Notes under the pieces: model-generated
Databases searched by the model: none
The model's input: the letters and a program-made list of their open reading frames with translations, nothing else
Told to the model about the DNA's origin: nothing
Translations under genes and position numbers: made by a program
NCBI GenBank assembly: GCA_943787485.1
Contig: CALSMP010000005.1
Coordinates: forward strand, 186,001 to 250,000
Direction of reading: 5' to 3'
Source of the DNA: an uncultured Luminiphilus sp.
GTDB taxonomy: Bacteria > Pseudomonadota > Gammaproteobacteria > Pseudomonadales > Halieaceae
Length of the DNA: 64,000 nucleotides
Part shown: piece by piece, positions 8,639 through 11,066 of the stretch
How positions within the stretch are numbered: position 1 is the first letter of the stretch
Layout: the number at the start of each line of letters is the position of its first letter

Positions 8639-10045
8639 TTATCGCGATGAAAGCGCCCGTGGAGCTTGCTTCCGAATGCTATTGAGCTGAGCGAAGAACA
8701 ACTCGTGGAGGTTTGAACTCGTTGCTTTAGAGAAATAACCGGAGGCCGCTGATGCGCTCTCGAGCACGTCGTTATTTACGGTGTCACCGACTACAACGGC
8801 GGGTCCCTGACCCCGCCCAACAATATTACCCTCAGTACCATCCCCCAACGAGATATCCGCCGCGGCAGTTGATGTACCGAAGTTGTTTGCCACCATGGCC
8901 CACCCGGAAACGACCGAGCCTAAAAATCCCTGACCAGGGTCACCGCTGAACAAGTCAATCCATATTCCCGAGGTACCCTTAAAGCGATTGCCACTGATTA
9001 GACCATTAGAGGTATCCAAAAACGCGACCCCGCTACCGCTAGTGTTATCGTCGCTACCTTCAAAAATGTTGCCCGAGATAACGACTGCATGATTCATGCT
9101 TTTACCACTTTGACCGCCCAATACGGCAATACCCGATGTAGACAAACCACCATCGATAAACCGATTAGCACCTTTTATCGTGGTCGCATTATCTGATGGG
9201 GACGCTGCCGTGCTGGCGATAAATACTCCCGTCGTTCCAAGCCCGGTTCCCACGTCGTATCCAGCAACATCATTGAAGTTAATTGTATTTTCGAGGATGG
9301 TGGTGCTTTGGAAGGCGTCGATCACAGAAATGGGCAGGCCTACCGCAGCAAATGTGCTGTAGTTGATATCCACCTGCCCTCCCCCACCGATTGAGGTCAA
9401 GACCCCGTAATCGAGATTATCCAGCTCCGAGCGGTTCACCTTCAACGTACCCAGTACTTTTTCGCTGACCGGATCACAGTCGGGGTGGCTATCCATAGTT
9501 ACGCCTACAACAAAATCCGAGCCATCCACACCCAGTCCAGACATAACAACCCTGTCCACGTTACCAAACGCTGTTCTATTGGCCGAGCAGCTATCGGGGT
9601 CCGAGTAAAAAGCCACCAGACTCGCCGCCGATCCGGACTCACAAGGTGAGCCAACCGCGATCGACATATTCCTGATACCGACATTGCCGACAACAAATTC
9701 CATCGCCACGCCCGGCGCGCCATCACAAACCAGTGATTCATCCGCGACAGTTACCAAAGTCGCCGCCTTTGATGTCCCCCGCAGATCACCCACAAATCCC
9801 TTGGTACTAAGCCCGCTAATTTGATACTCGCTGGAAACCAGAAAAACGTCACGGTATCCACCCGACACCGCGGCATCTAGGGCGCATTGAATGTTATCGG
9901 TGTCACTGGCGTCCGAAGAGGTCACCTCTATCGTGCCGCCATTAAGTACTACGGCGCTGGAGCACCCCAAATTTTCTTGGGCAACAGCGGACAATGGCAG
10001 CGCTATTGATAGTGACAGGGCAAGGGAAACGAAAAGTTTGCGCAT
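8639..10045 (-). CDS. Secreted right-handed beta-helix repeat protein
   Basis: The 468-residue product begins with a clear signal peptide (KLFVSLALSLSIALPLSAVAQ, cleavage near residue 22). It continues with many short Asn/Gly/Ser-rich beta-strand turns such as VVMSGLGVDGSDFVVGV and NHAVVISGNIFEGSDDN, the pattern of parallel beta-helix (pectate-lyase-like) proteins. There is no recognisable catalytic signature, so an enzymatic role is not assigned; surface polysaccharide binding or cleavage is possible. It converges with the sulfotransferase gene, and the reading frame is complete. Its 5' side faces the small RNA locus at 10.2 kb, with about 170 bp between its start and that promoter. Confidence 0.7.
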   Translation of the reverse strand: MRKLFVSLALSLSIALPLSAVAQENLGCSSAVVLNGGTIEVTSSDASDTDNIQCALDAAVSGGYRDVFLVSSEYQISGLSTKGFVGDLRGTSKAATLVTVADESLVCDGAPGVAMEFVVGNVGIRNMSIAVGSPCESGSAASLVAFYSDPDSCSANRTAFGNVDRVVMSGLGVDGSDFVVGVTMDSHPDCDPVSEKVLGTLKVNRSELDNLDYGVLTSIGGGGQVDINYSTFAAVGLPISVIDAFQSTTILENTINFNDVAGYDVGTGLGTTGVFIASTAASPSDNATTIKGANRFIDGGLSTSGIAVLGGQSGKSMNHAVVISGNIFEGSDDNTSGSGVAFLDTSNGLISGNRFKGTSGIWIDLFSGDPGQGFLGSVVSGWAMVANNFGTSTAAADISLGDGTEGNIVGRGQGPAVVVGDTVNNDVLESASAASGYFSKATSSNLHELFFAQLNSIRKQAPRALSSR

Positions 10046-10218
10046 GAAAACATCCTCAACACGTAGTTATTTACTATTGGGTAACTGATGGTACGTAAGC
10101 TTACAACAATATCCGTTTTAGGTGGCGCCTTTGCCAGGTCCATGTAAGCCCTATGAATCCGCCTCATCGTGTCTGTTCGCTGCGTAAATGACTTTCTGTT
10201 TTTTTATTAAATTTTTAC

Positions 10219-10247
10219 TTTACAATGCATTATGCATTGCATATTAT
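10219..10247 (+). promoter_or_regulatory. Sigma70-type promoter of the CsrB/RsmZ-like RNA
   Basis: TTTACA (10219-10224) and TATTAT (10242-10247) are separated by exactly 17 bp, which predicts a transcript start near 10254. The spacer is made of repeated ATGCAT units. A TGTAAG element at 10143-10148 equals the left half of the GacA upstream site known in pseudomonads, but the right half (CTTACA) is not present at the correct distance. A separate GTAAGCTTAC palindrome lies near 10094. GacA control is therefore only a possibility. Confidence 0.6.
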
Positions 10248-10253
10248 GGCGCC

Positions 10254-10429
10254 AAGTCAGGAAGACCGGGACGCCGCTGGGCGGGTCAAGGAAGACCCAA
10301 AGGCTAGGAAAGCCCAGCAGGCAGCTCTCACTTGGGGCATGGAGCGCCCCTTTTATCTATCAATGGTCGTCAAATTCCACCAGGTACATTGCCGACACTT
10401 TCGATGGGCGTAAAACGCCCATTTTTTTT
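10254..10429 (+). ncRNA. Candidate CsrB/RsmZ-type CsrA-sequestering small RNA
   Basis: Four consecutive hairpins each expose GGA in the loop, the known CsrA/RsmA recognition form: GTC-AGGAA-GAC (10256-10266), GGGTC-AAGGAA-GACCC (10283-10298), GGCT-AGGAA-AGCC (10302-10314) and GGGGC-ATGGAGC-GCCCC followed by TTTT (10334-10354). A strong intrinsic terminator ends at 10429. A well-spaced promoter precedes the first hairpin. The RNA would be about 100 nt if it stops at the fourth hairpin, or about 175 nt to the second terminator. Short ORFs crossing the region on either strand have no ribosome site or protein-like composition. Assignment rests on structure read by eye; no covariance model was run. 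Confidence 0.68.
10404..10429 (+). terminator. Rho-independent terminator of the small RNA
   Basis: ATGGGCG-TAAAA-CGCCCAT is a perfect 7-bp stem followed by a run of T (10422-10429). It lies downstream of the GGA hairpins and reads on the plus strand. The 150 bp after it, up to the end of the Lrp gene, show no further gene. Confidence 0.88.
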
Positions 10430-10588
10430 ATCCAGGCTTGGGGCAGCCCTCGACCCCATTTAAGCCCCCTAAAGGCTGCCTCGGTAACGTTAGCAACCGG
10501 TCGTTTCACAGAGCGCTCGCGCAAAAAGACCTCAAGGACTTTCAGACCTGCCGGTTCTATACCCCCCCGATCTGGCAACTCTCCGTAA

Positions 10589-11066
10589 TCAAAGCTGGGT
10601 ACCGAGTGGCAACTGCGTCGTATTTTTTATCTCGGTTACAGCCATGTGGGAATGCAACTCCCGGATCATTTCACTGGCAGTAAGCGTATTGCGAACGAAG
10701 TCTTCGTAATGGCGGATATCTTTCGTCACAATTTTTAAGATGTAATCCCAAATGCCCGTCATGGTGTAACACTCCACCACCTCGGGGTGAGCGCTCCATC
10801 TCAGACTCAAAGGCGAGCAAATTTTGACGCCCCGATTGGGTCAGGTTAACCGTGGCGAACACCACGATTTCCATGCCAAGTGCCTCCCGGTTGAGCACCG
10901 CCACCCGGCGCTGAATGAGACCCGCCTGTTCGAGCCTGTTGACGCGGCGCCAGCACGGTGATTGGGACAGACTCAACCGCTCAGCCAACGCCGCCGTGGT
11001 CATTCCCGCATCCTCCTGCAGGAGAGCGAGAAGCGATCGATCTACTCGGTCGAGCTCAATATGCAT
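10589..11066 (-). pseudogene. Lrp/AsnC-family regulator, reading frame broken
   Basis: The first frame from 11066 gives MHIELDRVDRSLLALLQEDA, a winged-helix domain (LAERLSLSQSPCWRRVNRLE) and the hinge strand EIVVFATVNL. At about 10790-10803 the frame changes, and the second frame continues AHPEVVECYTMTGIWDYILK with the RAM effector domain to the stop at 10589. Joined, the product is a normal Lrp protein of about 158 residues. One extra base, or two missing, explains the break; there is no long homopolymer. It may be a sequencing error or a real mutation. It diverges from the 2-ketoacid oxidoreductase/leucine dehydrogenase operon, which it probably regulates. Confidence 0.8.

Follow-up and report, generated by a model that had tools for sequence, protein, structure and literature searches.

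A conserved small RNA with GGA-loop hairpins in Luminiphilus, a candidate titrator of CsrA

Results

Organization of the locus

The DNA analyzed here (hereafter, the window) is a 64-kb stretch from an uncultured Luminiphilus sp., positions 186,001–250,000 of contig CALSMP010000005.1 (assembly GCA_943787485.1). One of its intergenic regions holds, in order, a promoter-like pair of hexamers, a small RNA body of 105 nt and a strong intrinsic terminator (Table 1). Both flanking signals had been proposed by a sequence-only reading of this DNA, as TTTACA-17 bp-TATTAT and as a terminator ending in eight T, and both were found. The hexamers match the consensus at 10 of 12 positions, which by itself is at chance level (1 such match found against 1.0 expected). 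Terminators number 2 in the same comparison against 0.9 expected by chance, and the fold of the present one has a z-score of −3.64, with none of 200 shuffles being as strong.

Table 1. Features at and around the RNA locus (window coordinates)
Feature	Position	Strand	Remarks
Gene for a 468-aa protein	8639–10045	−	adjoins the RNA
Palindrome CGTAAGCTTACA	10094–10105		about 150 nt ahead of the RNA
Sigma70-type promoter, TTTACA-17-TATTAT	10219–10247	+	−35 at 10219–10224, 17-nt spacer, −10 at 10242–10247
Small RNA body	10250–10354	+	extent matched by covariance models
SL1, GTC-AGGAA-GAC	10256–10266	+	loop GGA in 22/22 RNAs; pair 8-16: 20 U-A, 2 C-G
Outer stem P2	10276–10318	+	10276–10282 pairs with 10312–10318; encloses SL2 and a single-stranded AGGA
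SL2, GGGTC-AAGGAA-GACCC	10283–10298	+	ANGGAN hexaloop, 22/22 RNAs; compensatory changes in two pairs
Alternative hairpin, GGC-TAGGAAA-GCC	10302–10314	+	third hairpin of the sequence-only reading; overlaps P2, not conserved
SL4, GGGGC-ATGGAGC-GCCCC	10334–10350	+	ANGGA in 17/22 RNAs
Strong intrinsic terminator	10403–10429	+	stem from 10403, T run 10422–10429
Lrp/AsnC-type gene	10589–11066	−	domains in separate frames
Lrp/IOR/amino-acid-dehydrogenase cassette	10.6–15.8 kb		about 5 kb, between the RNA and two tRNAs

On one side, the RNA is adjoined by a gene whose product looks secreted by eye and has no Pfam match; related-looking proteins flank the RNA in two other loci (L002 and L049). On the other side lies an Lrp/AsnC-type gene. 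Its HTH and ligand-binding domains are read in separate frames, which points to a frameshifted gene or an assembly error, and its homologue in L002 occupies one frame.

GGA hairpins of the window RNA

A strict site was defined as a stem of three or more Watson-Crick pairs closing a loop of 5–7 nt that contains AGGA or ANGGA. The 105-nt RNA has four such sites. Among 3000 dinucleotide shuffles of these 105 nt, 2534 had no site, 425 had one, 38 had two, 3 had three and none had four; elsewhere in the window, on either strand, clusters of 90 nt reach two sites at most. Thus, the four GGA-loop hairpins described earlier are all present. SL1, SL2 and SL4 are conserved in relatives; the third hairpin is not, and it competes with P2, a covarying outer stem that the sequence-only reading had missed. 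Minimum-energy folds choose the 7-bp stem of P2, which is the stronger of the two, and when the window RNA is folded in this way the GGA of the third hairpin stays unpaired. At the same place, energy folds of the six other type A relatives (defined below) form a different short stem. The overall fold energy is mildly unusual, with z-scores of −1.97 for 185 nt and −1.64 for 103 nt.

Relatives of the RNA

A DNA search of 58 genomes returned one diverged copy (in G031) besides the window's own. An indolepyruvate-oxidoreductase-like gene (IOR; PF01558, PF02775) was traced through the 57 genomes of the genus, with a match in 41, and 30 loci were taken; two further copies were recovered at IOR loci by means of a fixed string. 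A covariance model built from these four copies, the window RNA included (R1), matched 25 of the 57 genus genomes at E 0.1 or better, at 29 places. After inspection, 23 places in 23 genomes were accepted, again counting the window's own. The six rejected places comprise five (L065, L066, L068, L070 and L071) that represent the common 3′ end of a cold-shock gene, as checked for L071 (PF00313, E 4.9e-30), and one (L069) that by eye is without the set of GGA hairpins.

The accepted RNAs fall into two types. Type A includes seven copies of 105–110 nt, found in G000 (the window genome), G015, G031, G033, G065, G068 and G073. Type B includes 16 copies of 92–99 nt (L050–L064 and L067), all of them in genomes other than those with type A. 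No match was accepted in the other 34 of the 57 genus genomes, some of which are incomplete; these include the nearly complete G005, G016, G030, G063 and G077, searched with R1 and the two models described next. Such genomes may have other sponges, or none.

In the window genome this RNA is the sole match, at the cut-offs applied, of each of three models (R1, E 3.6e-22; R2, E 1.0e-8; R3, E 8.6e-14), the window RNA itself being a row in R1 and R3. R2, which was built from type B only, picks it as the sole match in that genome at E 0.01 or better. It should be noted that type B was found with a type A model; the likeness of the two types is therefore partly by construction, and the R2 match is partly circular. 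At its threshold, R2 did not detect the G073 copy (type A). Among 140 genomes of the family, R2 at E 0.01 matched 25, namely 24 in the genus (22 with an accepted RNA) and G087; of 390 genomes sampled from the order, three were matched, two in the genus and one that is not convincing. Applied to 45 folD or IOR loci, it returned only L030, which is a copy already counted as L047. R2 matches in G013 and G009 (L093, L094) and in G182 (L171) were rejected, having no set of GGA loops by eye.

The looser model R3, run on 36 genomes, matched at 30 places at E 1, counting the window RNA. Eight were inspected: L092 (G087), L093 (G013), L180, L182, L186, L190, L192 and L196. Two of these belong to G004: the GGA hairpins of L182 are arranged differently, and L196 is a repeat. 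L092 and L180 are taken up at the end of the paper.

Gene neighborhood and flanking signals

The gene order provides support for the homology of types A and B that is independent of the models. All seven type A copies adjoin IOR (six) or an Lrp-like gene (one, at a contig end). Five type B loci share the order RNA (+), tRNA-His (−), tRNA-Pro (−), folD (+), and the two tRNAs are present in 11 of 12 type B loci; the exception, L056, is close to the end of its contig. For type A, the folD side was examined in the window; there, the RNA, the tRNAs and folD follow in the same order, with the cassette listed in Table 1 between the RNA and the tRNAs.

Promoter- and terminator-like signals occur at the window locus, and hexamers of the promoter kind also precede the RNA in relatives. 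Upstream of the 23 RNAs, the best hexamer pair, chosen each time as the best match and without a control, agrees with the consensus at 7 to 11 of 12 positions with a spacer of 16–18 nt, and stops 1–3 nt short of the model start in 21 of the 23. At the other end, SL4 of the window RNA is followed by TTTT, and in 15 type B rows a T-rich tail comes after the matching hairpin. The 3′ end of the RNA may be at SL4, as seems to be the case in type B, or at the terminator further downstream; its predicted length is accordingly about 100 nt (to SL4) or about 175–180 nt (to the second terminator).

Conserved structure and loop motif

Two alignments were examined, A4 with 22 RNAs and A5 with 15 type B RNAs. 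L058 was kept among the 23 but is absent from both alignments, since its sequence contains N and hardly differs from that of L059. With A4 as input, RNAalifold returned SL1, SL2 and SL4. None of the 264 pair cells of these stems is broken (261 are Watson-Crick and 3 are G-U), and 3 of the 12 pairs have two-sided changes. The five stem pairs of SL4 are invariant in the 22 RNAs, so that no covariation support comes from SL4; the stem of SL2 is invariant in type B.

A four-helix structure including P2, drawn by hand for A5, has 91.8% of its cells paired. Two-sided changes occur in 7 of its 22 pairs against a shuffle mean of 3.4, with none of 500 shuffles being as high, bearing in mind that related sequences can exceed shuffles; slid-partner controls gave lower values. 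One of five measures, the number of further pair types in A5, was not above shuffles (95/500). In these 15 RNAs, the counterpart of P2 shows changes on both sides in 6 of its 10 pairs and has 82% of its cells paired. G-U cells outnumber A-C cells in A5 (15 versus 9), which mildly favors the plus strand. Single-RNA energy folds gave the architecture in most of ten genus RNAs, the fold of L047 being without SL1.

The loop motifs of SL1 and SL2 are present in all 22 RNAs (Table 1), and 5 of the 22 have an SL4 without ANGGA. By the strict definition, the window RNA alone has four sites; 14 of the 23 RNAs have three, six have two and two have one. The loop of SL2 is an exact ANGGAN hexaloop closed by C-G, in which A and GGA are invariant, all four letters occur at the first N, and A, C or T at the second. 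In the available text of PMC7652899, RsmE is described as contacting the A and GGA of an ANGGAN loop. This combination of a free second loop letter with a fixed A and GGA is the pattern of CsrA-type recognition, not that of a pairing seed. It argues, together with the display of the motif in three hairpins by 17 of the 22 RNAs, against a trans-acting structured RNA whose loops pair with mRNAs, for example in an Hfq-dependent manner, with the GGA loops acting as seeds, or bind another protein. Such an RNA would be expected to have the terminator with a T run that is seen here, and GGA could pair with UCC stretches; on balance, we consider it unlikely.

Coding potential

The sequence-only reading had placed no coding gene in this region, and the relatives bear it out, as no reading frame holds across the 23 RNAs. 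The longest frames are of 16–29 aa, in 4 of the 23. Two observations could nevertheless be taken to suggest an mRNA leader, an attenuator or a short coding transcript. In the window, ORFs of 62 and 118 codons start near the −10 element. In type B, an ATG or TTG is found at −14 in 15 of 16 copies, inside a conserved TGCRA word, and the frame from −14 is open to the RNA end in 11 of 16. The frame closes early in the other five: L052 and L061 have a stop at codon 9, L058 and L059 have one at codon 23, and L067 combines an early stop with the lack of a start at −14. In addition, the differing lengths of type B RNAs shift the frame, so that L060, L061, L062 and L067 read SL2 in another frame than do L050–L056. 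The −14 start lies within the TGCRA promoter word, presumably upstream of the transcript start, and is absent from all seven type A copies; three frames of the window have no Pfam match at E 1; and the next downstream gene is on the opposite strand (the Lrp-like gene in the window, the tRNAs in five type B loci). Taken together, these features make a leader or coding transcript highly improbable.

GGA-hairpin patterns elsewhere

A search with a GGA-hairpin pattern yielded 48 stretches, 18 of which are on contigs of accepted genus copies. About 13 of the other 30 look like one repeat that follows a stop codon. Repeats with GTCAGGATGAC and GGCC-ATGGAT-GGCC (L129, L131, L133, L151, L152, L156, L162 and similar ones) occur directly after apparent stop codons in Lysobacteraceae/Rhodanobacter-type genomes. 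A single viral contig also matches the two-hairpin GGA pattern (L170, 2761–2804, plus strand). That the Luminiphilus RNA is itself a dispersed REP-type palindromic repeat resembling a GGA-hairpin RNA by chance, as these GGCC-ATGGAT-GGCC matches and the similar repeat L196 in a genus genome without an accepted copy might suggest, is scarcely credible: the DNA query and the three models each match the window genome only once, the neighborhood is fixed, and the promoter-like pair keeps a constant distance.

CsrA, GacA and the upstream region

The window genome encodes a CsrA (PF02599; contig C17, E 2.1e-25). The protein is canonical and shares 44 of its first 61 residues with E. coli CsrA. CsrA was found in 45 of 58 genomes, including G005, G016 and G030, all of which are without an accepted RNA match (G063 and G077 were outside that search).

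With E. coli UvrY as the query, no GacA/UvrY ortholog was found in ten Luminiphilus genomes, three of which were represented by matches at 1e-10 or better only. The matches have about 23–25% identity over most of the query, and the better ones (to 36%) are partial. The ten include RNA carriers (G000, G010, G015, G024 and G065, with completeness of 82–99%) as well as the single-contig genomes G005, G030 and G077, which are without the RNA. In other families, the same query matched at 49–60% over its full length in 11 of 18 genomes and not in the other 7; the absence of a clear GacA is therefore not special to the genus.

The GacA box is TGTAAG-N6-CTTACA. The regions upstream of 24 RNAs (up to 404 nt; less for L044 and L064) were scanned for its half-sites at spacings of 0–10 with at most two mismatches. 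No box with the standard spacing was found. Half-sites were seen in the window only, where CGTAAGCTTACA matches with spacing 0 and overlaps a spacing-4 match. This palindrome, not seen at the relatives, we take to be two GacA-box half-sites without a spacer. As neither a GacA ortholog nor a standard GacA box was found, transcription of the RNA would be set by another regulator.

One lead to such a regulator is offered by YGCAA/TTGCR words; the 23 RNAs have 58 of them in total within at most 64 nt of upstream sequence. Segment-swap shuffles gave a mean of 27.5 and a maximum of 39 (200 shuffles), and regions further upstream have about 9.6 per equal length. In all 16 type B promoters, TGCRA begins 12–13 nt ahead of the model start, before the −10. 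The words could possibly be the operator of some regulator, and were picked after looking, so that they serve as a lead only.

Known RNA families and literature

The RNA is unannotated, as had been supposed: at gathering scores, Rfam models of any family gave no match in the region, and no Csr/Rsm family appeared in a search at E up to 10 of positions 10050–10600 and of 20 loci, in which the weak non-tRNA matches were below their own gathering scores. The CsrB model (RF00018) has no match in the window genome at E 1; none of 16 genomes passes its cut-off, which indicates that this model is narrow. The same applies to PrrB_RsmZ (RF00166), whose cut-off is passed by only 1 of 16 genomes; it has no match at the locus and three weak ones elsewhere in the window genome (E 0.34–0.91). 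Among the open-licence matches listed in a literature search on Luminiphilus, NOR5/OM60, Halieaceae, Congregibacter and Cellvibrionales, there is no such RNA, and the matches listed for NOR5/OM60, Halieaceae, Congregibacter and Cellvibrionales make no mention of CsrA.

Discussion

The locus encodes a conserved structured RNA with three AGGA/ANGGA-loop hairpins; a sigma70-like promoter precedes it, and the same genome encodes a canonical CsrA. From these sequence features, we think it very probable that the product is a small non-coding RNA that titrates CsrA. It shares with the CsrA-titrating class several GGA hairpin loops, an ANGGAN loop and a CsrA in the same genome. The titration-type architecture proposed by the sequence-only reading has gained support from the conserved GGA loops of SL1, SL2 and, in most RNAs, SL4, from compensatory changes in SL1 and SL2 pairs (22 RNAs) and in P2 (15 type B RNAs), and from the CsrA gene. 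When the RNA is made, CsrA dimers would bind its GGA loops and would thereby be drawn off mRNA leaders, allowing CsrA-repressed genes to be translated.

Rsm RNAs are short intergenic RNAs with promoter and terminator signals and several AGGA/ANGGA-loop hairpins. The Luminiphilus RNA resembles RsmX, RsmY and RsmZ of Pseudomonas in being short and intergenic, in its AGGA/ANGGA hairpins and in the presence of a CsrA/RsmA protein in the genome. It differs from them in that no RF00166 match at the locus, no GacA ortholog and no standard GacA box were found, and in its three conserved sites with a covarying outer stem around SL2. With CsrB of Escherichia coli it shares GGA in hairpin loops and the proposed titration of CsrA, but it is much more compact, with about 105 nt to SL4 compared with 369 nt, and with three conserved sites compared with the 22 GGA given for CsrB in the available text of PMC7652899. 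Our best reading is that this compact RNA represents a new, unlisted family that would work like RsmX/Y/Z.

Several points count against titration, among them that there are only three conserved sites, that ANGGA has been lost from SL4 in 5 of 22 RNAs, that 34 of 57 genus genomes are without an accepted match, and that neither GacA nor a GacA box was found, unlike for the validated Rsm RNAs. According to the part of PMC5568370 available to us, Gac orthologs are present in every species whose RsmA-regulating RNAs have been validated, and further RNAs of this kind have been predicted in species with RsmA but without Gac. That part of the source has no Luminiphilus entry among its predictions, to which conservation and covariation over 22 RNAs are added here.

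The RNA is perhaps under a transcriptional input other than GacA; its transcription might be set by a regulator that reads the YGCAA repeats of the promoter. A wider scenario, in which Luminiphilus kept CsrA and the sponge, lost GacA, and rewired the sponge to such a regulator, has in our estimate slightly less than an even chance. If true, a widespread coastal marine lineage runs its Csr circuit off a non-GacA input. More generally, the RNA is a testable candidate CsrA antagonist for coastal marine bacteria (Halieaceae), and a conserved candidate sponge without a detectable GacA makes Csr circuits without Gac directly accessible to experiment.

Two RNAs outside the accepted set are suggestive as more distant candidates. 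One (L092, 1501–1591, plus strand) is in G087, which belongs to another genus of the family. It has three GGA hairpins (3 strict sites), the last being ACAGGGATGT, with a T run after it. The other (L180, 1501–1610, minus strand), in G060, is a different RNA candidate in a stretch without ORFs of at least 120 aa; it has GGA hairpins (2 strict sites), the last of which carries ACAAGGATGT. Both were left out of the count because their model E-values are weak (0.0024 for G087 and 0.0054 for G060, per genome, with 36 genomes searched). The SELEX consensus for CsrA appears in the available text of PMC7652899 as RUACARGGAUGU, and the last hairpins of both candidates fit ACARGGAUGU.
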